From a virus: 33,677 nucleotides of DNA. Positions 1,229-33,677 of this stretch are shown here, piece by piece (positions within the stretch are counted from its first letter, which is position 1; each line of letters starts with the position of its first letter). The position numbers and the translations under genes are program-made. The stretch is from the IMG/VR virus record IMGVR_UViG_3300027741_000163, positions 1-33,677 of that record. One strand, written 5' to 3'. Under the pieces are notes generated by a model. That model did not search any database. It was given only the letters and a program-made list of their open reading frames with translations, and was not told the DNA's origin.

Positions 1229-3070
1229 GTGAGCATGACAGAACAGCAGATTTGGTTGGCAACATTGGCAAAGGGGATGATTCCCGAGAAGTTCGGCGGA
1301 TCGATGGTTGAATACTTTGATGGCAAGCTTCGACTACCTCACTCGACACGCTACCCAATGTACATCGCCGAGGAGTCGCCGTGGCTAATTGAGCCAATGC
1401 GAGCCATTGGTGAACCAGGAATCAAGCGTGTGGACGTTCGTGGCCCTGCTGGCGCGGCAAAGTCATTGATTGGCGAGATGCACATTGCTTGGACAATCGA
1501 CAACGAACCTGGACTCTACTACTACGTCCACCAGTCTGATCCCGATGGAACAGATGCAATGGAGGATCGAATCTTGCCAATGCTTCAAGCCAATGACTTT
1601 TTGGCAAGGAAGCTTCCCAATGACCGTCACAAGCAACGGATTGCCAAGATCGTGTTTCCGCACATGAGTCTGTACTGCGTTGGGGCGAATATGTCCTCGG
1701 CGCAAAGCAAGCGTGTCAAATATTTGACGATGGAAGAACCGCATATGTACAAGCCGGGAATGATGACCGCTTTTGAGAAGCGATGCGAAGGGGTGCGGAA
1801 TGCAAAAATTTTAACCCTTTCCACCGGGAGTGTCCTCGGCGACGAGTCAGACGCCGCTTACCAGTCTGGCACTTGTGAGGAGTGGCAAGTGCCATGTCCG
1901 CACTGCCGTCAGTTCCAGCGCATGATTGATAGCAGAGATCGACTGATCTTTGAGCGGTCACCAGAGACCATCACCGAGAATGGTGAGTACATCTGGAATC
2001 GGATTCTGCCAACCGTCAGGTACAACTGCGAGCATTGCGGACTAGATTGGCCGAGTGACGAATCAAGTCGCCGCTCTCAAGCTCAACTTGGCAGATATGA
2101 AGTGACCAATCCCAACGCTCCGGCAAACCATCGCTCATTTCATTGGGAAGCCGTAGCTGTGCATTATTTCAACCTTGGTCAAATACTCATGGAGAAGCTG
2201 AAAGCGTCAACAGCAGCCAAAGCGGGGCAAATTGAGCCACTCAGAGATTATATGCAAAAGCGACGAGCGTTGGCATGGGACGAGTCTCCCGCTGACAGTG
2301 AGGCAAATATTGAGTTTGATCGGATCAAGGGTGCGTATTTGAAGCGAGAACCATTCGATGGCGAGATCGGGCGCTTCCTGTGCATCGATAACCAAGCAGG
2401 GCGAGCCAGCAAAGGCGAAGGCGCTCATCGATGGTACGTCTGCCGAGCGTTCGGGCAGTCCGAATCCCGCATCATTGACGAGGGGCGAATCGTCACTTGG
2501 GAGGAGTTGGAGGAACTGCGGATCGAACTTGGCGTTGAACCTGGACGAACACTTGTGGACATTGCGTTTGACACTCAAGCCGTGCAGGAGGTGTGCGTTC
2601 GGTACGGATGGCAGGGTCTGTGGGGCGATTCAACCAATCGCCGCGAGTTTCCGCATCACGAAAATTTCAATGGTCAGCGGATTGTTCGCAAATATCCATT
2701 CTCCTCGGTCAACGTAGGCCATGTAGGCATTGGCAAAGGAGGCAAGGTGCGTCAATCCAGATATTTTTTCTGGGCGCAACAACCAATCAAGAATATGTAT
2801 CACCGGATGCGTGGCGGCATGAGTACCTACAAATTCACCGCTCCGCAAAATGTCTCAGTCGAGTATCAGAAACAGACCAGCGTTGAGTTTAAGCGGCAGG
2901 AGGTGGACAAATCTGGACAGAAAAAGTGGTCTTGGACAGTTAGCAAAGGGAAGGCAAACCACTTACTTGACTGCGACCAGATGTGTCTGGTAAGCGCCCT
3001 GCTTGACGCAAGACTGCGCTCAGTATTGTTTACCACAGGCGATGCGGCAATTGAAGAGGCAGAGGTTTAA
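1229..3070 (+). CDS. Terminase large subunit (GpA family ATPase-nuclease)
   Basis: 613 residues, close to the usual GpA length (lambda gpA is 641). ATP-driven DNA translocase and end-cutting nuclease of the packaging motor. Visible features: Walker A-like GPAGAAKS at 72-79; Walker B-like YLTMEEP at 165-171; two Cys pairs, CPHC 223-226 and CEHC 267-270, typical of the GpA zinc-binding insertion; and acidic motifs in the C-terminal half (FLCIDNQ, DIAFDTQ, LLDCDQM) consistent with the RNase H-fold nuclease. The first in-frame start is GTG 1229, just after an in-frame TAG at 1223; ATG 1235 is an alternative. A GGAGG at 1186-1190 is too far upstream to serve either start. Its stop overlaps the next ATG (TAATG). 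Confidence 0.95.
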   Translation: MSMTEQQIWLATLAKGMIPEKFGGSMVEYFDGKLRLPHSTRYPMYIAEESPWLIEPMRAIGEPGIKRVDVRGPAGAAKSLIGEMHIAWTIDNEPGLYYYVHQSDPDGTDAMEDRILPMLQANDFLARKLPNDRHKQRIAKIVFPHMSLYCVGANMSSAQSKRVKYLTMEEPHMYKPGMMTAFEKRCEGVRNAKILTLSTGSVLGDESDAAYQSGTCEEWQVPCPHCRQFQRMIDSRDRLIFERSPETITENGEYIWNRILPTVRYNCEHCGLDWPSDESSRRSQAQLGRYEVTNPNAPANHRSFHWEAVAVHYFNLGQILMEKLKASTAAKAGQIEPLRDYMQKRRALAWDESPADSEANIEFDRIKGAYLKREPFDGEIGRFLCIDNQAGRASKGEGAHRWYVCRAFGQSESRIIDEGRIVTWEELEELRIELGVEPGRTLVDIAFDTQAVQEVCVRYGWQGLWGDSTNRREFPHHENFNGQRIVRKYPFSSVNVGHVGIGKGGKVRQSRYFFWAQQPIKNMYHRMRGGMSTYKFTAPQNVSVEYQKQTSVEFKRQEVDKSGQKKWSWTVSKGKANHLLDCDQMCLVSALLDARLRSVLFTTGDAAIEEAEV

Positions 3071-3369: not shown

Positions 3370-4923
3370 ATGAAACCATCACTGCTTGACCGAGCAATCG
3401 GAATCATCTCGCCAATGGCGGCAGTCCGCAGGTTTGCTGCCAAGCGCCTGCTCCACGAATTCAAATACGATGGAGCGCAATTTACCAATCGGCGATCTAA
3501 CGGCCCAGCGCAGATTGCTCCAAACTCGTTTCAAGTTCAACGTGATCGATTGCAGTTGCTGCGTGAGGCAACCGACTTAGAAAACAACTTCGCCCCAGCA
3601 AAGGTACTAAATCGGAAGTACGCTATGTACGTTGCACCTGTGGCGTATCACGCGCAGACTGGCGATGCAGCTCTGGACGCAGACATTGAGCGTTGGCTGA
3701 ATAACGAATGGTTTCCGCATTGTGACTCAGCCAACCGAGGAGTAGATTTCTTTCGCCTAATGGAATTTGGCGTCCTTGGCATGAACCGAGGTGGCGACTA
3801 CGGATGGGCATTCGTGCGTCCCGGCAGTGACCCGTCAATGAGTTACGAGGAACTGATCCGCTTGCCATTTCGCATTCAAGCAGTTGAGCCAGATCGGCTT
3901 GGCGGCGTTTACCAGAACGTGGTCTCCGAGGACTACGTCAGTGGCGTTTGCATTGGCCCAAATGGCGAGCCGACGGCATTTCGAGTATTCCGTCGCGGCA
4001 TGGCGGCAGGGCAGTATACCGATCCAGTCGATGTCCCAGCATCTCAATTTGTCCACTACACAGATCCGATGCAGATTGACGCCTACCGAGGAGTAAGCAA
4101 ATTAGACGCCGCTGTGGCAAATCTGCGTGACCTCTACGAGTTGATTGAGTTTACCAAAGGCAAATCAAAACTGGCATCGGCATTGACCATCTTCACCAAC
4201 TCCATTGGCGCATCCGCCGGATCAGGATCAATGGACGGATACGCATCCACGCATTTTGACAACCAGCAAACTGGATTGGCGCAGGACATTCAGTATGGGC
4301 AAATCAATCATCTTCCAGCGGGACAGGATGTAAAATTTCCAGACTCAGCATCGCCAGGAGCAGAGACACAATACCTCATGCAGTTGCTCCTCAAGATGAC
4401 GTGTATGAGTTACAACCTGCCTTATTCGTTTGGCCTCGACGCAACCAACCTTGGCGGCGTCTCCAGTCGCCTTGAAAGCGAGCAGGCCAAAGCGGAGTTC
4501 AACCGAGGACAGAAAGTTCTTGCTCCGTTGGCACACCGGATTAAGGACGCAGCTCTGCTCGACGCTATTGCTAAAGGCATCTTCCCAATCTCGGCAATGG
4601 AGAAGATTTGCTATGGACGCTGGAGCTACCGACCGCATCCCCAGCCGGACATTGGCAAGGAAGCAAATGCGAACATGAATCTCTATCAGAACGGACTGCT
4701 CAATCCAATGAGCTACTGGACTGAGGATTCCAAAGATCCCGAAAAAGTTGCGGATGACATGGTGCGCTGGGCAAAGATCAAGCGAGATAAAGCCTCTGCC
4801 GCCGGGTTTGCTGTTGAAGATGTCTTTGGTGCTGGCATGGCTCGCCCAACCAACATTTCGCAATCAGAGTCAATGTCCACCTCCATCGTCCCAGACCCTG
4901 CTGACGCGCCGCCTCAACAATGA
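3370..4923 (+). CDS. Portal protein (lambda gpB-like)
   Basis: 517 residues, the usual size for lambda-family portals. Forms the dodecameric ring at the capsid vertex through which DNA enters and leaves. Typical segments are the N-terminal basic region, the LREATDLENN...AKVLNRKYAMYV stretch matching the conserved portal helix that precedes the wing, the FRIQAVEPDRLGG segment, and the C-terminal LPYSFGLDATNLGGVSSRLESEQAKAEFNRGQ region, a strong lambda-portal signature (a D.T.xnySSxR-like loop followed by a long helix). Preceded by AAGGGA. Its stop overlaps the next start (ATGA). Confidence 0.93.
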   Translation: MKPSLLDRAIGIISPMAAVRRFAAKRLLHEFKYDGAQFTNRRSNGPAQIAPNSFQVQRDRLQLLREATDLENNFAPAKVLNRKYAMYVAPVAYHAQTGDAALDADIERWLNNEWFPHCDSANRGVDFFRLMEFGVLGMNRGGDYGWAFVRPGSDPSMSYEELIRLPFRIQAVEPDRLGGVYQNVVSEDYVSGVCIGPNGEPTAFRVFRRGMAAGQYTDPVDVPASQFVHYTDPMQIDAYRGVSKLDAAVANLRDLYELIEFTKGKSKLASALTIFTNSIGASAGSGSMDGYASTHFDNQQTGLAQDIQYGQINHLPAGQDVKFPDSASPGAETQYLMQLLLKMTCMSYNLPYSFGLDATNLGGVSSRLESEQAKAEFNRGQKVLAPLAHRIKDAALLDAIAKGIFPISAMEKICYGRWSYRPHPQPDIGKEANANMNLYQNGLLNPMSYWTEDSKDPEKVADDMVRWAKIKRDKASAAGFAVEDVFGAGMARPTNISQSESMSTSIVPDPADAPPQQ

Positions 4924-6750: not shown

Positions 6751-7719
6751 ATGCCCTACACAAATGCACAAGCAACGCCTCGTTCCGACATTTACGCGCT
6801 CGTCCAACAGGCCAACGCAGATTTTGGCAAGCTTTTTATTGGAGACCTCGTCCTTCCAGTAAAACCTGAAGATGTTCGCCGAGGAATTTACCTCAAGGCA
6901 AACCTCGCCAACGCTGAACTCCTCAACGCCGACGCGCAAGCTCGCGAAGGTGGATCTGGCTACAATCGCGTCAATCGCCGCTTTGACACCGACACGTTCG
7001 ACTGTCAAGAGTACGGACTTGAGTCTGTGGTCGATGACTCCTACGAAGCTGAAGTCGAGCGCTTTATGAATCTCGAGGCTACTGAGGCGATGCTTCTTGA
7101 GCGTTCGCTTCGCATTAGCTACGAAGCTCGCGTTGCGGCGGCAATCATTAACACTTCCACGTTCGACTCTACCGATGCGGTTGTAAACTACACGCAGGCG
7201 TTAACTGATACTACTGATCCCGCAAACGATATCGATGCGGCTAAGACTTTGTTGCTCAAGCGTGGTATCATTGCCAATGCAGTGATCATGTCGCAGAACG
7301 TCTTCAATCGCGTTCGCCGGGCTAAGTTGATGCAGAACCAAATCTACGGCGTTGTCCCTCGGACGGCAAATCAACGCGCCTTGCCAAATGAGCAGGACGT
7401 TGCGCAAGCACTCGGAGTGGAAACTCTTTACATTGGAAAAGCGCCTAAAAACACCGCTGGCAAAGGACTTGCGTTCTCCGGCGATTTCATTTGGGCAAGC
7501 ACTCACATCTGGGTTGGTCAAGTTTCTGGTGGCGAGTACACCGCTGGCGGAGTTGGGCGGACGATTCAATGGAGCAAAGATACCACTGGTCTCTTCACTC
7601 CCGAGACCTACCGCTCTGACGAGCGCCGATCCAACATCATGCGTGTTCGGCAGACTGTATCTGAAAAAATCATTGACGCCACTGCTGGCACATTGATCAA
7701 GACGAACTGGTCAGCGTAA
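6751..7719 (+). CDS. Major capsid protein
   Basis: 322 residues. The main shell protein, presumably HK97-fold. Position (after protease, scaffold and decoration protein, before a strong terminator) and sequence character support it: ADFGKLFIGDLVLPVKPEDVRRGIYLKA, the YNRVNRRFDTDTFDCQEYGLESVVDDSYEAE segment with an ELL-rich helix after it, RISYEARVAAAIINTSTF, and a C-terminal GRTIQWSKDTTGLFTPETYRS strand. This arrangement recurs in capsid proteins of uncultured siphoviruses. No N-terminal pro-domain is obvious, consistent with a separate scaffold domain in the upstream protein. Confidence 0.9.
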   Translation: MPYTNAQATPRSDIYALVQQANADFGKLFIGDLVLPVKPEDVRRGIYLKANLANAELLNADAQAREGGSGYNRVNRRFDTDTFDCQEYGLESVVDDSYEAEVERFMNLEATEAMLLERSLRISYEARVAAAIINTSTFDSTDAVVNYTQALTDTTDPANDIDAAKTLLLKRGIIANAVIMSQNVFNRVRRAKLMQNQIYGVVPRTANQRALPNEQDVAQALGVETLYIGKAPKNTAGKGLAFSGDFIWASTHIWVGQVSGGEYTAGGVGRTIQWSKDTTGLFTPETYRSDERRSNIMRVRQTVSEKIIDATAGTLIKTNWSA

Positions 7720-18637: not shown

Positions 18638-19017
18638 ACCCAAAAACTCTCATCCTGTTACCCTCCCTCTTCATCCTCTCGTCCTGCTCCACCGAGTGGA
18701 TGCAGAGCAATGTAACCAAAGCAGTTCTGTCCGAGATTGGAACGATGGTCTTCAACGCTGCTGTTCAATCGTTTACCTCTGATAGCAAGGTAGACTTTGG
18801 TCATTCAATGGCACAAGGCTTGTGGCAGAATCCACAGGTGACCGCAGGATCGATCAAACGCATTGCCGATGCATGGAGTGCTGATCACCTCCCAAAACTC
18901 TCTACAGAGGCTTACAAGGCGTATGCGTATGCCAACCCACAGAACTCTAAACAGCAAGCGCAAGTAACAGATGCAATTGCCAGCGCGATTAGTAATGCGG
19001 CGCAAAACAAATTCTAA
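18634..19017 (+). CDS. Lipoprotein of the lysis cassette
   Basis: 127 residues from ATG 18634, which overlaps the preceding stop (ATGA). Starting here gives a clear type II signal: KTLILLPSLFILSSC, with lipobox LSSC and Cys at about residue 18. The mature part is mostly helical (SEIGTMVFNAAVQSF, GSIKRIADAWSADHL, QVTDAIASAISNAAQNKF) with no second membrane segment. An outer-membrane lipoprotein between holin and endolysin genes might act as an o-spanin-like partner in disrupting the outer membrane, but it is longer than typical Rz1 proteins and has no Pro-rich region. The signal is directly visible; the spanin role is inferred. Confidence 0.7.
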   Translation: MNPKTLILLPSLFILSSCSTEWMQSNVTKAVLSEIGTMVFNAAVQSFTSDSKVDFGHSMAQGLWQNPQVTAGSIKRIADAWSADHLPKLSTEAYKAYAYANPQNSKQQAQVTDAIASAISNAAQNKF

Positions 19018-19511
19018 TGAAACTTGCACAACGATTAGTTGACCTAGCCTTGAAAGAGGTTGGGACAGAAGAAGTTCGCAACACAAATTGTGGGCCTCGC
19101 GTCAACGAATACAAATCGGCAACGTGGCTCCCTCCGGATCAGGCGTGGCCGTGGTGCGCGGCGTTTATCGACTGGCTCGTTATGCGAGCGATGGAGGAGG
19201 AAAGCGAGCGAAAATTTACCTTTGAGCGACCCCGCACCGCCGGGGCTTGGGATCTTGAAAATTGGTCGATGAAGCAAGACGGCTCGACGTGGACAAAACT
19301 CAACCCGCAGGCAGGCGACATAGCCGCCGGGGACATCGTAATTTTTACTTTTTCGCACGTTGGGCTGGCGGTCGACTCGCCCGCGAAGGGGCTTGTGGCT
19401 ACGGTGGAGGGAAACTCCCAGGCCGGAACGACTTCACGCGATGGTGGTGGAGTTTTTAAACACAACCGAAAACTTTCGCTAATTAAAACAAGAATTCGTT
19501 TTACCGTGTAA
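19017..19511 (+). CDS. CHAP-domain endolysin with a replaced C-terminus
   Basis: 164 residues. Cysteine peptidase/amidase that cuts peptidoglycan. Catalytic Cys47 in WPWCAAFIDW, His114 in FTFSHVGLAV and the Glu131/Asn133 region in TVEGNS form the expected CHAP set. AGDIAAGDIVIF is the usual strand before the His. Starts inside the lipoprotein stop (TAATG). The last 25 residues (SRDGGGV to IRFTV, coded by 19434-19508) match the end of the following HNH protein at 20 of 25 positions. GC at third positions drops from 15/21 in the 21 codons just before (19371-19433) to 6/24 in the last 24 codons, so the 3' end appears to have a different origin from the body of the gene. Confidence 0.85.
   Translation: MKLAQRLVDLALKEVGTEEVRNTNCGPRVNEYKSATWLPPDQAWPWCAAFIDWLVMRAMEEESERKFTFERPRTAGAWDLENWSMKQDGSTWTKLNPQAGDIAAGDIVIFTFSHVGLAVDSPAKGLVATVEGNSQAGTTSRDGGGVFKHNRKLSLIKTRIRFTV
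19434..19511 (+). repeat. Recoded endolysin tail, upstream copy
   Basis: Codes 25 residues plus stop. Matches 20202-20279 at 20 of 25 residues but only 48 of 75 bases; 14 of the 20 shared residues use different codons. This copy is A/T-rich at third positions (6/24 GC) unlike the gene it ends. Confidence 0.85.
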
Positions 19512-19514
19512 TTC

Positions 19515-20279
19515 ATGACTGCAAAACAAGCATCTCATCGAAGGGAAAAAGAGCGCGTTAAAATGCGCTTACTGACCGAGCCGGATAGTGAATGGTCTTT
19601 GAATTTTAAGACCAAGAGAAAGGCACAGCAGAAGCGTTGGATTGCAAGGAACCAGGATGCGAAAAACCGACACGGCAAGACGTATTACGACAAGCACAAG
19701 GTAAAATTAATCGCTAAAAACGTCGCATTAAAGAGGCAAAAAAAGATTGAGAACGGATGGAGTCTTCGCAAACCACAAACAAAAGAAGAATCAAAAGCGC
19801 GAGTAAAGAAGTGGTGCTTTGATAACCGTGAAAGGCTCAACGCTAAACTGCGAGCCCGAAGAGCATCCGATCCCTCGTTTAAGATTAGTTGCAATCTTAG
19901 GAAACGCCTTTCAGCCTTGCTACGACTAGCATCTACCAAAAAGACATCACAAACGCTCGCTTTGCTTGGGTGTCCTCTTCCGTCGTTTATGTTTTATCTG
20001 GAAAGCAAATTTGAGGTTGGAATGACGTGGGCAAATTATGGAGAGTGGCACATCGACCACATTATGCCGTGTGCAATCTTCGACCTTACCCAGCTGGATC
20101 ATCAAAAGAGGTGCTTTCACTTCTCCAATATGCAGCCTCTTTGGGCGGGGGATAACCGCAGGAAATCGGACTCCATTCCAGACTCCGCTGATACTCAAGG
20201 AAGCAGAGACGGAGGAGGAGTGTGGAAAAAGGAGCGAAAGATTTCCCTGATTAAAAGCCGCATCCGCTTCACCGTATGA
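19515..20279 (+). CDS. HNH homing endonuclease fused to an endolysin tail
   Basis: 254 residues. Residues 1-140 are very Lys/Arg-rich and helical, as expected for DNA binding. The nuclease core is WHIDHI at 178-183, a second conserved part CFHFSNMQPLW at 200-210 (Asn205), and Asn214 in GDNRRKSD, the layout of phage HNH endonucleases of the H-I-D-H type. Residues 230-254 (SRDGGGV to IRFTV) are not part of an HNH enzyme but a copy of the CHAP endolysin end. Its codons (14/24 GC at third positions) resemble the body of the endolysin. Its TGA overlaps the following small gene (ATGA), the usual junction style here. I infer that the endonuclease gene was inserted into the endolysin gene and inherited the original 3' end. 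Confidence 0.85.
   Translation: MTAKQASHRREKERVKMRLLTEPDSEWSLNFKTKRKAQQKRWIARNQDAKNRHGKTYYDKHKVKLIAKNVALKRQKKIENGWSLRKPQTKEESKARVKKWCFDNRERLNAKLRARRASDPSFKISCNLRKRLSALLRLASTKKTSQTLALLGCPLPSFMFYLESKFEVGMTWANYGEWHIDHIMPCAIFDLTQLDHQKRCFHFSNMQPLWAGDNRRKSDSIPDSADTQGSRDGGGVWKKERKISLIKSRIRFTV
20202..20279 (+). repeat. Original-looking endolysin tail, downstream copy
   Basis: Second copy of the 25-codon endolysin end, in frame with the HNH gene. GC-rich third positions and the ATGA overlap with the next gene suggest that this is the ancestral end of the endolysin gene. Confidence 0.8.
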
Positions 20280-21947: not shown

Positions 21948-22186
21948 GCAAAACCATTACCCTAAGCATTGATTGCAAGCTAATCGACAAAGCAAAACTT
22001 AAGCCATACACACGGAAGGACGGCACAGAAGCGTTGTTTTTAGCGATGACCTTGGTGGAGACGCCAAACTCGCCGTATGGTGAATGGATGGTTAAGCAGG
22101 ACTCGACCAAGGAAGAGCGCGAGGCGAAGGTCAAACTGCCAATTCTTGGTAACGCCAAAACTTTAGGATGGAAGGCAGGAGCATGA
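21944..22186 (+). CDS. Hypothetical protein before the ERF gene
   Basis: 80 residues. Beta-rich with TITLSIDCKLIDKAKLKPYTRKDGTEALFLAMTLVETPNSPYGEWMVKQ, a pattern I associate with small phage proteins next to ERF or ssDNA-binding genes; it may be a ssDNA-binding OB-like protein, though this is not demonstrable by eye. It runs directly into the ERF gene with overlap. Confidence 0.6.
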   Translation: MSKTITLSIDCKLIDKAKLKPYTRKDGTEALFLAMTLVETPNSPYGEWMVKQDSTKEEREAKVKLPILGNAKTLGWKAGA

Positions 22187-22749
22187 ACAAGAGCGACTCA
22201 ATCGCGGCGTTGGCGGCGGCGCTTTCCAAGGCGCAGGGGCAGATGGGCGGCGCAAAGAAGGAGGTGTCCAACACTTTTTTCAAGAGCAAATATGCTGATC
22301 TTGCCTCAGTTTGGGAAGCTGCTCGCCTCCCACTCACGAATAATGGGCTGGCAGTCATTCAACTGCCAGGGCGTGACGCTCAAGGTCATTTCGTTGAGAC
22401 TGTCCTTACTCACTCCTCGGGCGAATGGGTGAGTGGCATCTTCTACATCACGCCGCTCAAAGATGATCCGCAACAAATAATGAGCGCCACCACTTACGCG
22501 AGGAGAGGATCGCTGGCTAGTATTTTAGGCATCGCTCCAGAAGATGACGATGGCGAAGGCGCGATGGGCAGACCAGCACAGGCAGCAGCAGTTCGTCCGG
22601 CATCTAAGCCAGTTAAGGAAGGGCCATCTGAAGAGCAGCAGGACAAGTGGATCAATGACCACAATGCAAGGGTGGCAGCATCAAAGGTGGTGCAGACAAA
22701 GCAAGACCTTCGCAACATGGAAATCGACAACTCAGACATCCCATTCTAA
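22183..22749 (+). CDS. erf: ERF-family single-strand annealing protein
   Basis: 188 residues from ATG 22183, which has GGAAGGCAGGAGC upstream and overlaps the preceding stop; an earlier start at 22168 is less likely. Typical ERF elements: AAALSKAQGQMGGAKKEVSNTFFKSKYADLASVWEAARLPLTNNGLAVIQ (the KskYADLasv...r..l..ngl pattern) and IMSATTYARRGSLASILGIAPEDDDGE, the conserved end of the core domain. The acidic tail (NMEIDNSDIPF) resembles those of recombination proteins that bind partner enzymes. Role: homologous recombination and DNA end annealing. Confidence 0.9.
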   Translation: MNKSDSIAALAAALSKAQGQMGGAKKEVSNTFFKSKYADLASVWEAARLPLTNNGLAVIQLPGRDAQGHFVETVLTHSSGEWVSGIFYITPLKDDPQQIMSATTYARRGSLASILGIAPEDDDGEGAMGRPAQAAAVRPASKPVKEGPSEEQQDKWINDHNARVAASKVVQTKQDLRNMEIDNSDIPF

Positions 22750-25621: not shown

Positions 25622-26770
25622 ATGGACAATTTAAATGATCACGATCCCATTACAGTTATTGAGTTCTGCGCCGGATACGGAGGTCTTGGACTTGGCATCA
25701 AAGGCGTCCTTGGCGAAAGAATGCGGCTCATCGGACTTTGTGAACTTGAGGGGTTCGCCCAAGCTAATCTCATTAGTAAAATGGAAGCGGGACTCATGGA
25801 ACAAGTTCCTATTTGGTCGAATCTGCTCACCTTCCCATACCGAAAGTTTCGAGGACTGGTGGATATCGCGGCTGCGGGAATCCCTTGTCAGCCGCACAGT
25901 CTTGCAGGAAAGCGGAGCGGAGGAGGCGATCAACGATTCCTCTTTGACGACTGGTTGTGTGGACTTGAGCAAATGCAACCAAGAGCAATTTTTATTGAGA
26001 ACGTCGAAGGATTCCTCTCAAGCAAAATGCCAGATGGAACTCTTTGCGTCGAATGGACAATCAAAAGATTGGAAGCAATGGGGTATCAAACTGCGACAGG
26101 AATATTCTCAGCGCGTGAAGTCGGCGCACCTCACCAGAGAAAGCGAGTGTTTATCCTAGCCCACCGTGACGGCAAACGAGGACAGTTATCGGATTGGTGG
26201 AAACTCGCAGCAGAGTCATTGTCTGTCAGCGATGGCGAGACGCGGAGAGCTTGGCCTTCCCGCCCCGGCGAACCCCAGCACGGATGGGAGCCGCCTAGAG
26301 TCGTGGCTAACTCCGCGAGCCAACGAACCAACGGAGGACAGCAATTTCGTGGCGAGGAATGCGGACAGGGGGGAGCATTGCCACTCCAGTCTGACGACTC
26401 AGGCGAAAGCATGGGAAACGCCAACAGTATCGACAGGGGGACATCGACAATCGGACGGATCGATGACGCCGAAACTGGATCAGCAGGTGAAGCAGGAGGA
26501 CAGCGGGAAGCACAGGCTAGGCGAGCAGGCGCAACACAACTCGGGAGGCAAATTAAATTCGCAATGGGTTTGCCTATTAATGAATCTTCCAATGGGGTGG
26601 GTGACTCCGAGTTGTCCAGTCTCAGTAATCAAGAATTGGCAGAAATTTATGAGTGGATGGAACGATGTGACAATCGCACCGACGAACTGCGCCTGCTCGG
26701 CAACGGAGTCGTGCCAGCAACCGCAACCCTAGCGTTTCAAACCCTGCTTGATGAACTCCTTGCCTTATGA
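25622..26770 (+). CDS. C5 cytosine-specific DNA methyltransferase
   Basis: 382 residues, complete. Motif I EFCAGYGGLGLG (about 14-25), motif IV GIPCQPHS with catalytic Cys89, motif VI IENVEG (ENV 126-128), motif VIII QRKRVF (172-177), a variable target-recognition stretch (about 185-330) containing AWPSRPGEPQHGWEPPRVV, and the C-terminal LRLLGNGVVPATATLAF that carries the conserved Gly-Asn of motif IX/X. No restriction enzyme is nearby, so it is probably a solitary phage methylase protecting against host restriction or marking DNA. The stop at 26768-26770 overlaps the next gene (ATGA). A second, long open frame lies inside it (next entry). Confidence 0.93.
   Translation: MDNLNDHDPITVIEFCAGYGGLGLGIKGVLGERMRLIGLCELEGFAQANLISKMEAGLMEQVPIWSNLLTFPYRKFRGLVDIAAAGIPCQPHSLAGKRSGGGDQRFLFDDWLCGLEQMQPRAIFIENVEGFLSSKMPDGTLCVEWTIKRLEAMGYQTATGIFSAREVGAPHQRKRVFILAHRDGKRGQLSDWWKLAAESLSVSDGETRRAWPSRPGEPQHGWEPPRVVANSASQRTNGGQQFRGEECGQGGALPLQSDDSGESMGNANSIDRGTSTIGRIDDAETGSAGEAGGQREAQARRAGATQLGRQIKFAMGLPINESSNGVGDSELSSLSNQELAEIYEWMERCDNRTDELRLLGNGVVPATATLAFQTLLDELLAL
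25635..26732 (+). other. Second (+1) reading frame inside the methyltransferase gene
   Basis: Relative to the methyltransferase, the +1 frame is open from ATG 25635 to the stop after codon 26732, broken once by TAG 26157-26159 (parts of 174 and 188 residues). The product is protein-like and matches, from memory, a frequent phage family: WKQWGIKLRQEYSQRVKSAHL, then TVTANEDSY, SWLTPRANEPTED, SLTTQAKAWETPTVSTGGH and GGKLNSQWVCLLMNLPMGWVTPSC (compare the 'LNPxWVExLMGxPxGW' ending). In that family a Trp stands where the TAG is. ATG 25635 overlaps the stop of a small upstream frame (ATGA). It may be an expressed overlapping gene, a decayed one, or a by-product of conserved methyltransferase codons. 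Confidence 0.4.
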
Positions 26771-27174
26771 AAATGACCGAACAACAGGTGCGTGAGCATC
26801 AATACAAGCACAAATTTCAATGTGCGCTGGATCAACCGATCAGCGTTGTCGAGCAACCGACGCTGGCTCAAGAACGCTGGCAAGCAGGTGAAGAACGTGA
26901 ACTTAATGCCCTAGTCTGCACAGACCTGCGGCGCCGGGGCTACTATGTGCTGGTCAGCAGGACTGACAAAGAATCCACCATTCGCCGAGGTCATCCCGAT
27001 TTGACTGTGATGCACCAAGGTAAGGTGTGTTGCATCGAACTCAAGGCGTCTGGAGGCAAACTGAGCAAACATCAGACCGAGTGCATTGATGAGTTGAATC
27101 AATCGGGAGTGCCAACGAAGGTCTGTTGGAACTTCGATGAGGCAGTCAAATTTGCAATCGTTTCCCTACTATGA
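26767..27174 (+). CDS. VRR-NUC-type nuclease
   Basis: 135 residues. The C-terminal 80 residues carry the PD-(D/E)xK core of the VRR-NUC family: RRGYYVLVSRTDKESTIRRGHPDLTVMHQGKVCCIELKASGGKLSKHQTECIDEL, in which Asp of GHPDL and Glu-x-Lys of ELKA are the metal and catalytic residues and GKLSKHQ is the usual following helix. The family is thought to act on branched DNA and often takes the place of Holliday junction resolvases in phages. Neighbouring ERF and helicase genes agree. The N-terminus (about 1-45) is polar and unassigned. Confidence 0.88.
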   Translation: MKMTEQQVREHQYKHKFQCALDQPISVVEQPTLAQERWQAGEERELNALVCTDLRRRGYYVLVSRTDKESTIRRGHPDLTVMHQGKVCCIELKASGGKLSKHQTECIDELNQSGVPTKVCWNFDEAVKFAIVSLL

Positions 27175-27816: not shown

Positions 27817-28203
27817 ATGACATACCAACAATTAATTGACCAAGAGTTCTGCCGAGTAATGCCAACCTTCGACATCCTGCAACAGCAGTTGCTGGTGTTG
27901 GCACAGTCTGTGCCACAGGAAAAACTGGATTTCAGTTTAAGCGTGGGCAAAGACTCAATCTTTGTGTTCGTTTACGCGAAGCACCTCGGCAGCATCCGCC
28001 AGCAGGCGACCATTGAGTTCTACCGCTGGCATTCCCCAACGCAGTGGATTGAGGCGCTCGGCATCATCCGCGACCGATGCATGACTCCTCCTGCCAAACC
28101 AGAGCCAAGCCACATGGAGATTTTGGTGGAGCAACTCCGCTCGGAGCGACTGGAGGTGATTCGCCTTCGCAATATCGTCAAATTTATGGAACAAGCATTA
28201 TGA
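27817..28203 (+). CDS. Hypothetical protein at the head of the replication unit
   Basis: 128 residues from ATG 27817, just after the promoter. Segments SVPQEKLDFSLSVGKDSIFVFVYAKHLGSIRQQATIEFYRW and a C-terminal coiled-coil-like helix (MEILVEQLRSERLEVIRLRNIVKFMEQAL). Not recognised. Translationally coupled (ATGA) to the RHH gene. Confidence 0.55.
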   Translation: MTYQQLIDQEFCRVMPTFDILQQQLLVLAQSVPQEKLDFSLSVGKDSIFVFVYAKHLGSIRQQATIEFYRWHSPTQWIEALGIIRDRCMTPPAKPEPSHMEILVEQLRSERLEVIRLRNIVKFMEQAL

Positions 28204-28403
28204 TTGAAATCGAAAAACCAGCACCAAAAAAGCGTGGTCGCAAGCCGCGCAAGATCAAGCGAGTGGCATTGACCATTCGCGTCGAACCACACGTTGCCGA
28301 GGGATTTGAAACCCTCCGCTTTGAACTAGGACTGAGCCAATCAGAATTCATGGCGCACCTAGTAAAGATGGCGCTTATCTCATCGATTGGAGGAATGCCA
28401 TGA
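28200..28403 (+). CDS. AT-hook plus ribbon-helix-helix DNA-binding protein
   Basis: 67 residues. An AT-hook-like KRGRKPR at 11-17, then a ribbon-helix-helix pattern: strand RVALTIRV (21-28), helix VAEGFETLRFELG, turn, helix QSEFMAHLVKMAL. RHH proteins dimerise and put the strand in the major groove, while the AT-hook would hold the minor groove. Possible repressor of its own unit, with the palindrome at 27793-27806 as a candidate operator; this is inference. Confidence 0.6.
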   Translation: MIEIEKPAPKKRGRKPRKIKRVALTIRVEPHVAEGFETLRFELGLSQSEFMAHLVKMALISSIGGMP

Positions 28404-28750
28404 TTGATCTTACAGGCATGGTCATCCCTAAGCATTTGGAGGCGCTTTGGAATCGCCGATTTGAGGTCGAAGACACCCTTCGTTATGTGCAGGTACTTCG
28501 TAAAAGTATCGCGTCTTCTTGGAAGGACGATCCCCTCTATCTGCCAGTCAGTCTCGTCAATGTTGCCAGTAAGCTTGAATCGGTCTACCGAGATCTGCTA
28601 TGTGCAGTGCCATATGCGGTCTGTCCCACCTGCCAAGGTGAGGCGACTCAAGCGTGTTTGATGTGCAAGAAGCGAGGATTCCTGTCGAAGACTCAGTGGA
28701 ATGTCTGTGTGCCACAGGAGATGAAGGACATTAGGAAGGCAATGCAGTAA
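28400..28750 (+). CDS. Hypothetical protein with DnaJ-like zinc motif
   Basis: 116 residues. The N-terminal 75 residues are helical (LEALWNRRFEVEDTLRYVQVLRKSIASSW). The C-terminus has CPTCQGEATQACLMCKKRGFLS, two CxxC knuckles of the DnaJ zinc-finger kind (CxxCxG...C..C.grG). It lies directly before the helicase (TAATG overlap) and may help load or bind it. No family certain. Confidence 0.55.
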   Translation: MIDLTGMVIPKHLEALWNRRFEVEDTLRYVQVLRKSIASSWKDDPLYLPVSLVNVASKLESVYRDLLCAVPYAVCPTCQGEATQACLMCKKRGFLSKTQWNVCVPQEMKDIRKAMQ

Positions 28751-30543
28751 TGGACTTCCTTAGACCATATCAAAAATTAGCGGCAGATTCGATCCTCAAG
28801 GAGTGGGAGACGAAGCAAAGCACGATGGTTGTGCTTCCAACGGGCGCAGGGAAGACCTGTCTATTCGCGGCAGTGATTCACAATCGACTGCCGGGTCGAG
28901 CATTGGTGCTGGCACATCGGGAGGAGTTGATCTTCCAAGCGAAAGACAAGATTGAGAAGTTTACGGGCTTGGACTGCGAGATTGAGATGGGCGAACTCAC
29001 GGCATCAAAAAGTTTTTGGTCTACCATGCCTGTGGTCATCGCCACAGTGCAAACACTGGTATCGGGGAGGGTCAGACCTCGGATGGAGAAATTCAATCCA
29101 GCGGACTTCTCGACGATTGTCATAGACGAGTTTCATCACGCCACTGCCAAAACATTTATCAAAATCCTCGATTACTTCAAGTCGAACCCTGACATCAAGA
29201 TCCTCGGCGTGACGGCAACGCCTGACCGGACTGACGAGGAGGCACTCGGTCAAGTGTGCAATAGCGTAGCGTTCAACTACACGCTGACTGAGGCAATCAA
29301 TGATGGATGGCTTGTTCCGATTTCGTGCCAGATGGTCAGCATCGCGGGATTGGATTTTAGCGAGGTTCGCACTACTGCCGGAGATTTGAATGGTGCTGAC
29401 CTCGCGGCGATCATGGAGGCAGAGACAGTCTGCCAAGGAGTATGCTCGGCGACGCTTCAGATCATTGGTAAGCGACAGACGATTGTCTTCACACCATCGG
29501 TCAAACACGCTGAGATGGCCTGCGCTATTTTCAATCGCCATCAGGATGGAATTGCCGAGTGGGTATCTGGCAAGACTGAGAAGGAAGCTCGCAGGAAGAT
29601 CATGGACAATGTGGTGTCTGGCAAGACGCAAATTCTCTGCAATGTTGGAGTAGCCACCGAGGGATTTGACGCCCCAGGCGTTGAGGTGATCGTTATGGCT
29701 CGCCCAACAAAATCACGCGCCTTGTATGCTCAGATGGCAGGACGAGCAACTCGGCCACAAGCGGGGCTGGTCGATCAGTTTGACACGGCAAGTGAGCGTA
29801 AAAATGCAATCAGCAACAGCAAAAAGCCGGGGGCGTTGCTCATTGATTTCGTGGGAAACAGTGGTAGGCACAAACTGATCAGCGGACTTGATTTGCTTGG
29901 CGGGAAATACACCGAGGAGGAGCGCCGAGTTGCCAAGCAAATCGTTGCCGACGGGGATCTCCACGATATCGAGGATGCCCTTGATGATGCCCGAGACGCC
30001 ATCATTGCCAAGGCGCAGGCGGAACGTGAGTTGCAGAAACGATTGGAGGAAGCTAGAAAGCGAAAACTGGTAGCAAAGGCCAAGTGGACATCGGCCTCAA
30101 TTGATCCGTTTGATGCGTTCGATATTCGTCCAGCATCTCCAGTCGTCGAACAGAAAAATCCTCTGACCAGTAAGCAGAAGGATATTCTTCGCAAGCAGGG
30201 TATTGATCCAGATTCCATGACTACCTATCAGGCAAAGCAATTGCTGAATGAGCAGTTCCGGCGTTGGCAGAACGATCTGTGTTCGTTGAAGCAGTCCGTG
30301 CTGTTGAGCAAACATGGCTATGATGGAGCGCACACGAAGCGGGATGATGCTAGGAGAATCATTGATGCACTGGCAAAGAATCGCTGGAAGAGTCTCCCAT
30401 CGGAGCATCCAATGTCTATTCGGCGAAGCGGAGCAAAGGCGCCACAGAAGCAACACCACACCAACCGCAGACCAGCATCGCCACAATACCAATCGCACAC
30501 CATGCAACAACGGCAGCGCCAGCGAGAGGATGTGCCGTGGTAG
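28750..30543 (+). CDS. SF2 DEAD/DEAH-like helicase
   Basis: 597 residues. Walker A PTGAGKT (30-36), motif II DEFH (126-129), motif III TATP (155-158), motif V region VGVATEGFDAPGVE, motif VI QMAGRATRP (328-336): a complete type III restriction/RecQ-like SF2 core (ResIII plus helicase C). Residues about 395-440 are a charged coiled coil (RDAIIAKAQAERELQKRLEEARKRKL); the C-terminus is basic and disordered (QKQHHTNRRPASPQYQ). Many phages carry this protein next to a TOPRIM primase-like gene and use it in replication. Ends with TAG, overlapping the next GTG start. Confidence 0.92.
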   Translation: MDFLRPYQKLAADSILKEWETKQSTMVVLPTGAGKTCLFAAVIHNRLPGRALVLAHREELIFQAKDKIEKFTGLDCEIEMGELTASKSFWSTMPVVIATVQTLVSGRVRPRMEKFNPADFSTIVIDEFHHATAKTFIKILDYFKSNPDIKILGVTATPDRTDEEALGQVCNSVAFNYTLTEAINDGWLVPISCQMVSIAGLDFSEVRTTAGDLNGADLAAIMEAETVCQGVCSATLQIIGKRQTIVFTPSVKHAEMACAIFNRHQDGIAEWVSGKTEKEARRKIMDNVVSGKTQILCNVGVATEGFDAPGVEVIVMARPTKSRALYAQMAGRATRPQAGLVDQFDTASERKNAISNSKKPGALLIDFVGNSGRHKLISGLDLLGGKYTEEERRVAKQIVADGDLHDIEDALDDARDAIIAKAQAERELQKRLEEARKRKLVAKAKWTSASIDPFDAFDIRPASPVVEQKNPLTSKQKDILRKQGIDPDSMTTYQAKQLLNEQFRRWQNDLCSLKQSVLLSKHGYDGAHTKRDDARRIIDALAKNRWKSLPSEHPMSIRRSGAKAPQKQHHTNRRPASPQYQSHTMQQRQRQREDVPW

Positions 30544-31388
30544 AATTCGCCTTTGACTCCACACCATTGCCAACTGGTCAATGGGAGAAGGTCACTAAGG
30601 TTAACCCTTGTGGAATCTGCCACAAGGGTGATTGGTGTACCATCGGCGAGAAGGGGCGATGCTGTATGCGAGCCGAGAGTGATCGTCCGATGTCTAATGG
30701 CGGATGGTTTCACCGATTTTATGCGGACGCTCCGGCGTATGTCCACCGACCTCCGCCGCCAAAGAAGGTAGAACCAACCGAGGACTTTGGGAGGATGATG
30801 AACGACTGGAGAGCTAGTGCCTCGGAAAAAAAATTGGAGGGGATGGCAGATGCTCTTGGCGTAACGACACACGCTTTGTGGCTACTCGGGGCGACATGGT
30901 GTGAGGAGAAGAGGCTCATGGCATTTCCGATGTATGATGAGCGAAGTTGGGGCATTGACCAAGTCTGCGGAATTCGACTGCGAACAATGGACGGGAAAAA
31001 GTTTGCGGTCACAGGTTCAAAGTCTGGCGTCTTCTTTCCATTCCGCGCCCAACTGCTGATCGACGCTTCTCGGTTATTCATTTGCGAAGGGCCAACCGAC
31101 ACCGCCGCTTTGCTATCACTCGGCTTGTTCGGAATTGGGCGAGCATCGTGCCGAGGTGGGATACCCATCATTGAGGCTATCGTTGATCAGATTGCTCAAG
31201 AGGTGGTGATCGTGTGCGATAACGATTCGCCTGGACTTGAGGGAGCGGATCTACTGATGAAGTCTATTCGCAAGCCTGTGGTCAAATTGATTCCTCCCAC
31301 AAAAGATATTCGCTCCTTCGTCCAGAAGGGGGCGACAAAAGCATTGATTGATTCGATGCTCAAAGACATGATCTGGAAGAGAAAATAA
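30537..31388 (+). CDS. TOPRIM-domain primase-like protein
   Basis: 283 residues starting at GTG 30537, inside the helicase end, with GAGAGGA upstream. N-terminal Cys-rich part (PCGICHKGDWCTIGEKGRCCMR) that may bind zinc as in DnaG-type primases. The middle holds MAFPMYDERSWGIDQVCGIRLRTMDGKKFAVTGSKSGVFFP. The C-terminal TOPRIM domain is RLFICEGPTDTAALLSLG (Glu of the first TOPRIM motif) and VVIVCDNDSPGLEGADLL (DxD). This arrangement is typical of primase or DNA-processing proteins acting with the phage helicase. A full RNA polymerase core, as in DnaG, is not evident, so primase activity is not certain. Confidence 0.8.
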   Translation: MVEFAFDSTPLPTGQWEKVTKVNPCGICHKGDWCTIGEKGRCCMRAESDRPMSNGGWFHRFYADAPAYVHRPPPPKKVEPTEDFGRMMNDWRASASEKKLEGMADALGVTTHALWLLGATWCEEKRLMAFPMYDERSWGIDQVCGIRLRTMDGKKFAVTGSKSGVFFPFRAQLLIDASRLFICEGPTDTAALLSLGLFGIGRASCRGGIPIIEAIVDQIAQEVVIVCDNDSPGLEGADLLMKSIRKPVVKLIPPTKDIRSFVQKGATKALIDSMLKDMIWKRK

Positions 31389-31391
31389 CTT

Positions 31392-32069
31392 ATGGATATT
31401 TTAAACACGCAGGAAATTATTAAGCAACCTGAAGGAGTAGAGGAGGATGTCTCTAGCGACCTGCTGTGTTCTAGCTTGGACTTTCAGATTGTAAAGGTTC
31501 ATCCTTCACTGATAACGTATGTGGACAGCCTTCAGAAAAAGAATGCGGAAGCCTTGAGTTTTTATCCGAAATGTGTTTTTGAGCGAGAGGCAGAAAATGG
31601 ACGCATTCTTTTGGGGCTATTAAACGGACAACCCGCTGGCTATCTCTATGTTGGCGCAAGGGGAAACGATGTGAAATGCCATCAGGTATGCATTGAGTAT
31701 GACGCAAGGCGACGACTCTACGGAGCGGCACTTGTTCAAGCGATGGAGGATTACGCTCAAGGTGCATTTACTCTTACTTTAAGATGTGGATTTGATCTTG
31801 ACGCGAACACTTTCTGGGCGGAAATGGGATACGATTGCATTGGCATTCAAGATGGAGGCATTCGACGCATGAGGAAAATTAACGTGTGGAGGAAGTCGCT
31901 GATGACAGAACTATTTGAGGATACCATCATAGAACCTGCCGTAGGAAAAGTGGATGCGTCCGTGTGGCGCAAGAACAAGCAGACTGGCATCGTCACGCAA
32001 TTTGTTCGCGGAAAGGCGATGAGAGACTACCGAGCAAAGATAGTTGAAGCGGGAAACCCAAACATTTAA
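31392..32069 (+). CDS. GNAT-family acetyltransferase
   Basis: 225 residues. Core fold: ILLGLLNGQPAGYLYVG (strands 2-3), VKCHQVCIEYDARRRLYGAALVQAMEDYA (strand 4 and the CoA-binding helix, where RRRLYGAAL corresponds to Q/RxxGxG/A), and TLTLRCGFDLDANTFWAEMGYDCI (strand 5, helix 4 and the typical F...GF/Y end). The last 45 residues (VDASVWRKNKQTGIVTQFVRGKAMRDYRAKI) are extra. It might acetylate a protein or sugar; substrate unknown. Starts after AATAACTT with no Shine-Dalgarno sequence. Confidence 0.75.
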   Translation: MDILNTQEIIKQPEGVEEDVSSDLLCSSLDFQIVKVHPSLITYVDSLQKKNAEALSFYPKCVFEREAENGRILLGLLNGQPAGYLYVGARGNDVKCHQVCIEYDARRRLYGAALVQAMEDYAQGAFTLTLRCGFDLDANTFWAEMGYDCIGIQDGGIRRMRKINVWRKSLMTELFEDTIIEPAVGKVDASVWRKNKQTGIVTQFVRGKAMRDYRAKIVEAGNPNI

Positions 32070-32079
32070 AAAATAACTT

Positions 32080-32790
32080 ATGAAAATTAAAAACTACATT
32101 GTGATTCCTGTGAAGGATCAGAAGGATATGACTACGAATTTGCTGAACCAATTGGATCGGCAGGGTGGCTACGATGGTATCATCGTGCTGGACAATGGTA
32201 GCGGCGAGCAGACCAAAAATTATCTGGCGGAGCAGTCAATCGCCCGAGTGATCGACGCGACTGGGGCGGGGATACATGAGATGTGGAATATGGGCGTTGA
32301 GATTGCTCTGAAGACTGGATCGAACTGCAACATCACCTTCCTCAATAATGACCTCATCCTCGGCGATAACTTCATTGAGAACCTAGAGGTAGCGCTGAGA
32401 GCAGGACATCGATTGATGGCGATCTCGCCAAACTACGATGGGCGAGAGATTCCCTGCACAACCATCTACGACCGAATCTGCGCCAATCAGTATGATGGCA
32501 AGGGTGGTGTTCCTGGGTTCGCTTTCATGGTCAAGGGTGAATGGTTCGCCACTGGTTACCGCTTTCCCGAGGAGTGTATGTGGTGGTTCGGCGACAACGA
32601 CATTCTCAACGAGATGCTCAAGAATGGATATTTTTGGGGGATCACTCCTAATACCACAGTCCAGCATATTGGGGGCGGGGGTCAGACTGGCGACTGGGAT
32701 GCATACATGGCAAGCCCGGTGTTTCAAGCAGACTCATCCGCATTCTTTGCTAAGTGGCCCAAGGGAATTTTCGTGCCGCCACCATTTTAA
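32080..32790 (+). CDS. Glycosyltransferase family 2-like protein
   Basis: 236 residues. KNYIVIPVKDQKDMTTNLLNQL, IIVLDNGSGEQT and ITFLNNDLILGDNFIENL (the N-N-D-L variant of the DxD motif) form the GT-A nucleotide-sugar domain. Later GGVPGFAFMVKGEWFATGYRFPEECMWWFGDNDILNEML matches the conserved acceptor-side ED/xD region (GDND). This is the second glycosyltransferase in the window. Same AATAACTTATG start context as the gene before, pointing to a shared leader type. Last gene before the non-coding repeat region. Confidence 0.85.
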   Translation: MKIKNYIVIPVKDQKDMTTNLLNQLDRQGGYDGIIVLDNGSGEQTKNYLAEQSIARVIDATGAGIHEMWNMGVEIALKTGSNCNITFLNNDLILGDNFIENLEVALRAGHRLMAISPNYDGREIPCTTIYDRICANQYDGKGGVPGFAFMVKGEWFATGYRFPEECMWWFGDNDILNEMLKNGYFWGITPNTTVQHIGGGGQTGDWDAYMASPVFQADSSAFFAKWPKGIFVPPPF

Positions 32791-32807
32791 GGGTATTGAA
32801 TTTTGAC

Positions 32808-32847
32808 CAAGGTGGGCGGGGGTATGTCGTAACCCTTGCCCACCTTG
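32808..32847 (+). repeat. 10-bp inverted repeat overlapping the repeat array
   Basis: CAAGGTGGGC (32808-32817) and GCCCACCTTG (32838-32847) pair perfectly around a 20-base loop, 18 bases after the last gene. There is no T-run, so it is unlikely to be a plain terminator. Confidence 0.6.
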
Positions 32848-33206
32848 AGCGGGGGTGTGGTTGCCGAGTTGCGCGAGTTGCACTGATGACCTAGGTGAGT
32901 CTGCCAAAATTACAAATGGACGCCATGTTCGGATTGGCCAGAAATTTCAAATAGGGGCGGGGGTATGCTATGATTTTTACCATAGGAGGGCGGGGGTACA
33001 TTGCCGAGGATTCCATAAGAGGGCGGGGGTGTGGTTGCCATTGGTTCAATTCCGCTGACCATCTATGTTCGGAATGGCAGTCCCGGCGATTGGCAAATCA
33101 AGCTCCGCCAATTCTATGAGTCGCCGGGGGTGATGCCTCAATTTCATTTTCAAATTGGAGGGCGGGGGTATGCTGCCGGACGCTCAGAATAGAGGGTGGG
33201 GGTGAT
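32814..33206 (+). repeat. Repeat family A, consensus GGGCGGGGGTATG
   Basis: Eight copies, with GGGC (or variant) starting at 32814, 32847, 32955, 32988, 33021, 33122, 33160 and 33194. Intervals are 33, 108, 33, 33, 101, 38 and 34 bases, close to a 33-34 unit or three units. Three or more copies are exact over GGGCGGGGGTA. The bases between copies differ. Confidence 0.85.
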
Positions 33207-33457
33207 GTTCGGAATGGCCCAAAATTGGAATGAGAATAATGTTCGGAATGGCAGTCCCCGGATACCAGATTATGTTCGGAATGGCAGGTTCGGGAAATCT
33301 GTAAAATATGAAAATTATAAAAAATATGGAATTTATAATAATGTTAAAACTAATGGAGAATATTGAATTTATATCAAGAGTGAAATTTATAAAAAATATC
33401 GATTAAAAATAATGTTCGGAATGGCCCGCTCTAGGTAAAAAATAATGTTCGGAATGG
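32925..33457 (+). repeat. Repeat family B, consensus ATGTTCGGAATGGC
   Basis: Seven copies at 32925 (one mismatch), 33065, 33205, 33239, 33272, 33412 and 33444; six are exact over 14 bases. Intervals are 140, 140, 34, 33, 140 and 32 bases. Interleaved with family A in the left half. Every copy begins with ATG and would code MFG(M/L)A. Confidence 0.88.
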
Positions 33458-33556
33458 CGCGTTCGGGGTATTCCGTATTCCAAAAATATATTATCAGAAT
33501 AGAATTGAAATAGAATTGGAATACAATTGAAATAGAATAAGAATAAAGAGTGAATA
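33300..33556 (+). repeat. A/T-rich block with 11-bp tandem repeat
   Basis: Very A/T-rich, many A-tracts. At 33502-33556 five 11-base units follow one another: GAATTGAAATA, GAATTGGAATA, CAATTGAAATA, GAATAAGAATA, AAGAGTGAATA. Eleven-base phasing of A-tracts favours bent, easily melted DNA, as at replication origins. Confidence 0.65.
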
Positions 33557-33594
33557 GATTTTATATTTCAAGAATAGGCGATGAAATAAAGCTT

Positions 33595-33677
33595 CGCCCT
33601 CCGATCCCCTTGCCCTCGCCCCAGCCCTCGCCCTCCGATCCCCTCGCCCTCCGATCCCCTCGCCCTCCGATCCCCTC
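33595..33677 (+). repeat. 16-bp GC-rich tandem repeat at the window edge
   Basis: CGCCCTCCGATCCCCT at 33595-33610, then an 18-base diverged unit (33611-33628), then three exact units at 33629, 33645 and 33661. The last base begins another unit, so the array is cut by the window edge, probably an assembly limit. Confidence 0.9.

Follow-up and report, generated by a model that had tools for sequence, protein, structure and literature searches.

A conserved array of two interleaved repeat families beside an A/T-rich block, a putative replication origin in a freshwater phage contig

Introduction

Replication origins of lambdoid phages and iteron plasmids are defined by initiator-bound repeats lying beside an A/T-rich unwinding region, according to the excerpts cited here (PMC7466680, PMC4980987). 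In the Streptococcus thermophilus phage Sfi21 the annotated origin is a 302-bp non-coding element that follows the primase gene. Phage T4 starts from R-loops, as described in the cited excerpt (PMC3016281).

Here we analysed a linear IMG/VR phage contig of 33,677 bases from a freshwater bacterial virus, referred to in its full length as the window, in which the recognised genes run rightward (Table 1). An earlier note on this DNA had described two interleaved repeat families at its right end and proposed that they form an origin or a multi-site regulatory region.

Results

Motif B, ATGTTCGGAATGGC, occurs seven times with up to two mismatches, always on the + strand, while shuffled sequences held 0.23 copies on average and 2 at most; every match of this quality in the window is confined to the repeat region. 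Motif A, searched as a 13-mer with up to two mismatches, gave seven matches against a shuffle mean of 0.48, one of them (32673) in the upstream gene. For counting, its 10-base core GGGCGGGGGT was used with at most one mismatch, yielding seven non-coding cores and three inside genes, at 20143, at 32264 and at 32673 in the glycosyltransferase gene. The seven B copies previously claimed were all recovered; of the eight claimed A copies seven are non-coding cores, and the eighth is either the coding copy at 32673 or a degenerate copy near 33122 that sits about 5 bp off the spacing grid. The A copy at 33194 is directly followed by a B copy. All non-coding A copies have their G-run on the strand that is co-directional with the upstream genes and are located ahead of the A/T-rich block. 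The claim that no gene is present for nearly 900 bases holds, as no open reading frame of at least 70 amino acids covers 32807-33677.

The perfect A core at 32673-32682 lies exactly 141 bp ahead of the first non-coding copy and is unchanged in the two close relatives described below. It encodes a glycine run, and given this coding role its presence may be a coincidence.

Table 1. Positions of genes, repeats and other features in the window
Feature	Position	Strand or direction	Remarks
terS	58-489	rightward	PHROG 57
Large terminase terL, GpA-type	1229-3070	rightward	
Portal, lambda-family	3370-4923	rightward	
Major head protein	6751-7719	rightward	
CHAP/endolysin-like protein	19017-19511	rightward	
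ERF annealing protein	22168-22749	rightward	
DNA methyltransferase	25622-26770	rightward	
Resolvase-like nuclease	26767-27174	rightward	
Small protein, AT-hook-like KKRGRKPRK and ribbon-helix-helix-like part	28197..28403	+	candidate array binder
SF2 DEAD/SSL2-type DNA helicase	28750..30543	+	PHROG 16, E 1.6e-87
Primase-like (Toprim) gene	30537..31388	+	PHROG 239, E 2.6e-10; Toprim below Pfam cut-off
GNAT-like acetyltransferase gene	31392..32069	+	relatives on many other viral contigs
Glycosyltransferase family 2-like gene	32080..32790	+	directly upstream of array; Pfam PF00535, E 5.6e-5
Hairpin just past glycosyltransferase stop codon	32808..32847	+	inverted repeat; left arm contains first A copy
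Family A array	32814..33203	+	non-coding cores 32814, 32847, 32955, 32988, 33021, 33160, 33194
Family B array	32925..33458	+	copies 32925 (1 mismatch), 33065, 33205, 33239, 33272, 33412, 33445
Unit 1			A1 32814, A2 32847, B2 32925
Unit 2			A0 32955, A1 32988, A2 33021, B1 33065
Unit 3			A1 33160, A2 33194, extra B 33205, B1 33239, B2 33272
Unit 4, past A/T-rich block			only B1 33412, B2 33445
A/T-rich block, between B copies 5 and 6	33302..33411		13.6% G+C; 9/18/36-bp periodic; candidate DNA-unwinding element
Second least stable stretch	33476..33575		overlaps 11/22-bp GAATAGAATTG-type repeats at 33496-33558
C-rich 16-bp tandem repeat at contig end	33594..33677		other C-rich units at same place in G001, G002

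The copies follow one another at 33-34 bp within clusters, with larger steps of about 140 bp, and both distances reduce to a single super-period of about 173.5 bp. Comparison of 32791-33470 with itself gave peaks at 33, 173, 34, 207 and 347. When seven plus seven sites were placed at random, with the period left free, none of 20,000 placements was as regular as the real copies, whether judged at the short or at the long scale; together with the shuffle counts this confirms the two interleaved families and their steps as first described. Arithmetic on the copies distributes them over about four units of about 173.5 bp with the slots A0, A1 (+33), A2 (+33), B1 (+44 from A2) and B2 (+33), and this one scheme accounts for the 33-34 as well as the 140-bp steps. 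The region thus holds the several, regularly spaced direct repeats that mark an iteron-type origin.

The A/T-rich block is the 110-bp stretch of lowest G+C in the window, and the weakest duplex of the window, scored over 100 bp, starts at 33313 (5.1 s.d. above the mean). In the relative G002, of which a 6.6-kb stretch (L008) was examined, two of the three least stable stretches, starting at 1104 and 1285, fall within the array and immediately past it, and the third, starting at 5139, is close to the opposite repeat flank. An adjoining A/T-rich element of low stability, another mark of iteron origins, is thereby present, and so are short repeats within it, with periods of 9/18/36 bp in the window and 9 bp in G002. 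The A/T-rich block of the earlier description is therefore real, except that the last 84 bases of the contig belong to a separate, C-rich tandem repeat.

C-rich tandem repeats stand at this same place in all three sequences (33594-33677 in the window, about 7555-7673 in L007 and 1434-1690 in L008). Others were seen at the opposite flank of the right-end genes (L017, 1695-1753) and in a more distant phage (L066, 4200-5450). The repeat unit differs completely between close relatives, so that these elements look like fast-changing minisatellites, and they probably cause contig breaks. Approaching the array the G/C skew has a positive sign, which becomes negative within the C-rich repeat; in G002 this change of sign also falls where the genes change direction. 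The cumulative-skew check proposed earlier did reveal a switch; running from plus to minus, it would be explained no less well by a terminus or by the turn in gene direction than by an origin.

The hairpin that follows the glycosyltransferase gene is kept in the alignment of all three sequences and carries no T-run; it possibly marks the end of rightward transcription. A structured RNA was considered for the array and rejected, since folding was not markedly more stable than in shuffled sequences (z -1.38 and -1.28), the covariation term of the three-sequence consensus was unfavourable and no Rfam match was found at E<=1. Sigma-70 promoters and intrinsic terminators were likewise dismissed, being present inside the array at chance level only.

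A protein search with the glycosyltransferase identified two close relatives, G001 (34,484 bp) and G002 (11,759 bp), and one distant relative without motif B. The array is found with near-identical spacing in both G001 and G002, that is, in three of the three contigs known to cover the place, all of them close relatives from the same phage group. Between the window and G001 the bases changed amount to 2/91 in B copies, 2/68 in A cores, 56/364 in G+C spacers and 106/276 in A/T spacers; the corresponding values for G002 are 1/91, 6/69, 54/364 and 99/276. In both relatives 15% of the G+C spacer and 36-38% of the A/T spacer positions are changed, and in the neighbouring gene 22/87 (G001) and 22/78 (G002) four-fold degenerate sites are changed, so that the G+C spacers are also less changed than silent sites. 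Because they have fewer changed bases than the spacers and the four-fold sites, motifs A and B are, judged from these alignments, under stronger constraint than their surroundings.

Both motifs were found in G001 and G002 only, and no further carrier emerged from searches with paired B, paired A (22 stretches) or a conserved 19-mer, nor among neighbouring proteins, 33 terL relatives and longer stretches of those contigs. Of the paired-A stretches two are the known relatives and the rest are without a B array; the stretches in L080 and L089 resemble local tandem repeats, and those in L095 and L097 are G-rich with A-like words in them. L097, an unrelated virus contig, has three such words spaced by about 34 bp at its end (minus strand, 4129-4206); the G-rich sequence around them is apparently non-coding and has no B. 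L078 and L079 hold a few B-like words only. GenBank phages gave no match to the array, and a plasmid match in Borrelia recurrentis (78% over 71 bp of A/T-rich sequence) was dismissed as composition. No description of motifs A or B was found in the literature searched. A repeat dispersed throughout a host genome, which the earlier note had considered, finds no support, as B pairs 15-24 nt apart had zero matches in 84,980 species genomes. A chimeric assembly or vector sequence was also rejected, as the same array occurs in two other contigs of the phage group, from two datasets.

G002 shows what lies beyond the window. Its order is glycosyltransferase, array, C-rich minisatellite, about 3 kb of leftward small ORFs, second C-rich repeat, A/T-rich repeats and window start, and the array is situated where rightward and leftward genes meet. 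Whether the contig end joins position 1 had been raised before with regard to reads; at the level of contigs G002 does bridge the two, through about 3.8 kb absent from the window (window about 33594 to window 1, equal to L008 1433 to 5262). The leftward small ORFs absent from the window (L008 1700-4600) include a GP88-family protein (PF17338, E 1.1e-43), and at 1701-1734 a strong hairpin of terminator type ends the leftward block.

The window start, GGTTCAGCGTTGG, is also the exact start of contigs L016 and L018. Further groups with a common start beside terS are L030/L033/L034, L037/L038 and L021/L022, so that contigs of different phages in the group share start points just before terS. Such groups comprise 10 of the 20 contig starts printed, from samples of one lake series that may not be independent. 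Because of the common contig starts and the GpA-type terminase, this pattern suggests a lambda-like cohesive end (cos) just before terS as the physical left end of the packaged genome, about 4 kb from the array. Scanning species genomes with terL gave no relative that could name the host; the named terL relative listed at the top is Akkermansia phage Moulinsart (23.5%), and Verrucomicrobia as host is only a guess.

Two further observations concern the genes of the window. The non-coding stretch of about 740 nt between terS and terL (490-1228) has relatives in L015, L016, L017, L018, L044, G001 and G002 and folds far better than its shuffles (z -4.73, 20 shuffles); in six sequences 13 of 195 predicted pairs were changed on both sides yet still paired. 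It had no Rfam match, two weak ones at E 4.5 and 8.9 in one search aside, and is a candidate for a new phage RNA. The GNAT-like protein has relatives of 64-91% identity on 43 viral loci, and because these span a G+C of 32-64% its gene is probably a frequently exchanged cargo gene.

The helicase is a homologue of the one found in the replication module of Gram-positive phages, and it was used to find phages with a comparable module. A tblastn search matched 1,916 GenBank phage records, 49 of them at a coverage of at least 80%, and identities were 32-36% among the matches listed with at least 90% coverage; the values were 34% (E 3e-77) for Javan17 and 30% (E 3e-30) for Sfi21. A homologous SF2 helicase thus lies upstream, as in Sfi21, while the non-coding element does not directly follow the primase gene and two genes intervene. 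BLASTP showed no homology between the primase-like protein and the Javan17 primase, the only primase of a Gram-positive phage compared.

Seventeen records were fetched, eight from the top of the list and nine spread over it, and gaps were chosen by eye from the annotation. Twelve gaps of at least 190 bp directly after an annotated primase or replicative helicase were scored by counting repeated 9-mers against 300 shuffles. The repeats beat all 300 shuffles in 10/12 of these gaps and in 1/21 other gaps (Fisher 7e-6), where Streptococcus phages make up 8/12 of the scored and 7/10 of the positive gaps and are not fully independent. Positive were Aster, Lugh, Javan85, BCJA1c, KSM96, Javan17, Javan131, Javan311, Javan539 and Javan235; negative were EFC-1 (32/300 shuffles) and Javan377 (148/300). 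The single positive comparison gap, in KSM96 (L150 1811-1992, 0/300), lies between oppositely oriented genes, and the BCJA1c gap with annotated repressor sites came close (4/300). The post-primase gap of KSM96 reaches the end of its circular record, so its far border is uncertain. A scored gap was missing in Hayley (30-bp gap), Castelnaud (none), Dulem virus 35 (75-bp gap), YDN12, whose primase is on the other strand and whose 626-bp gap went into the set of 21 comparison gaps, and LE1, which has no annotated primase and contributed two gaps to that set. Sfi21 was fetched afterwards and stands outside the 12; its annotated origin fails the 9-mer test (0 repeats), and because this element goes undetected the test is neither necessary nor sufficient for an origin.

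The motifs themselves are not shared with these gaps: B had no significant match in 11 of the 12 and a weak one in Javan539 (21/500 shuffles), and A was not significant in 6/6. On visual inspection several gaps of Streptococcus phages combine two kinds of motif, e.g. AGGGACAAA with CGAAAATGTCC, which weakens the earlier view that a grid shared by two different motifs is out of the ordinary. In the post-primase gaps L151 11379-11747, L156 10555-10918 and L157 8839-9239, AGGGACAAA repeats are interleaved with CGAAAATGTCC/TTCGGGAATGTCC-type words, and these gaps are possible origins of their phages.

Discussion

The most plausible explanation of these observations is that the region from about 32800 to 33590 is a phage origin of DNA replication of the type that combines iterons with an unwinding element, and on sequence evidence we hold this to be probable. 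The earlier alternative of an origin or a regulatory region thereby shifts towards the origin, which gains from conservation in three genomes, from the lowest duplex stability of the window and from the arrays of the helicase relatives; regulation is retained as a rival. Helicase and primase-like genes do lie upstream, as had been stated, but not just upstream, the GNAT-like and glycosyltransferase-like genes being placed between them and the array. This distance weighs against the origin, as do the direction of the skew switch, the lack of words in common with nearly all comparison arrays, the failure of the Sfi21 origin in the 9-mer test, the repeats in gaps beside regulator genes, the A-like words of L097 and the small set of three close relatives that carry the array.

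We infer that the A and B copies would be bound by one phage protein, or by two of different specificity. The fixed spacing, 33-34 bp within a cluster and about 173.5 bp between clusters, would let the bound proteins touch each other, and the assembled complex could strain and melt the adjoining A/T-rich block, at whose far edge two more B copies are found. The SF2 helicase and the primase-like protein would then work on the opened DNA together with replication proteins of the host. One candidate for the initiator or array binder is the small protein encoded at 28197-28403, near the helicase; its KKRGRKPRK stretch is presumably AT-hook-like and its match to Pfam RHH_1 (E 0.079) is below the cut-off. 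Profile matches named no initiator homologue among the window ORFs scanned. The array contains no DnaA box (TTWTNCACA), an optional feature present in many iteron origins but not in all.

One may speculate further that A and B are two iteron classes on one register, read by two proteins or domains on a shared scaffold of about 173.5 bp, and that a higher-order complex of fixed geometry, and not simple head-to-tail binding, melts the block. This elaboration is compatible with the data from three related genomes, and we regard it as rather unlikely.

Among other explanations, a multi-site operator or enhancer, whose copies would bind a phage regulator of neighbouring genes or of its own level, deserves consideration as direct repeats are also present in two comparison gaps near regulator genes, those of BCJA1c (annotated repressor sites) and KSM96, and as a small DNA-binding-like protein is encoded upstream. 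It is nevertheless improbable: the array of G002 is not in front of a gene but where the two gene directions meet, the terminator-like hairpin closes the leftward genes ahead of it, and sigma-70-like sites, the only promoter type sought, are at chance level in the window stretch (2 vs 1.7 expected). Plasmid partition offers another precedent, with arrays of direct repeats bound by ribbon-helix-helix proteins, and the ribbon-helix-helix-like protein of the window could by analogy bind a centromere-like partition site or another DNA-organising site for packaging or recombination. We rate this as still less probable, since neither a ParA-like ATPase nor an integrase was seen among the scanned window ORFs, a set that leaves out some small ones, or the nine right-end ORFs of G002, and since the presumed packaging end lies well away from the array, next to terS.

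The orientation of the A copies brings R-loops into the discussion, given the phage T4 precedent in the cited excerpt (PMC3016281). Their G-rich + strand could stabilise an R-loop that primes replication into the A/T-rich block, and the G-runs do point that way; yet transcription may be halted by the conserved hairpin that directly follows the last gene, and neither the fixed spacing nor the preservation of B within the A/T block would be explained, so that a transcription-primed origin seems very unlikely. Just as doubtful is a functionless leftover of repeat growth, an old tandem duplication of about 173 bp kept by descent. Tandem duplication does occur here, as seen from the super-period and the minisatellites next to it, but mere descent is hard to reconcile with B copies that stay nearly unchanged while the surrounding A/T spacers differ by more than a third between the window and its relatives.

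If the region is an origin, it provides a defined and conserved target for a phage group known from metagenomes only, and the 10/12 gaps suggest a rule, namely that a phage encoding this SF2 helicase would have its origin, in the form of a repeat array, shortly after the replication genes. Should the reading with two iteron classes hold, the fast-changing minisatellites alongside would complete a new origin architecture in phages of an uncultured freshwater host.

Compared with described systems, the array resembles the Sfi21 origin in being non-coding and low in G+C and in lying after the genes for a homologous SF2 helicase and a primase. It differs in its greater length, its two motif families and the two extra genes after the primase, and the repeats of Sfi21 are short (AAGTAAC type). 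Direct repeats near the primase in a homologous helicase module are shared with Javan17, Javan311, Javan539, Lugh, Aster and BCJA1c, phages of Streptococcus, Faecalibacterium and Bacillus, although the words differ and their gaps, putative origins only, are shorter (197-423 bp). With the origins of lambdoid phages and of the iteron plasmids RK2 and R6K, as far as the cited excerpts describe them, the locus shares direct repeats next to an A/T-rich unwinding element; that of RK2 contains short repeats of its own (PMC7466680, PMC4980987), as does the A/T block here. Lambdoid origins differ in placing 4-6 iterons inside the initiator gene, whereas the window has two motif families in an intergenic position and no known initiator homologue.
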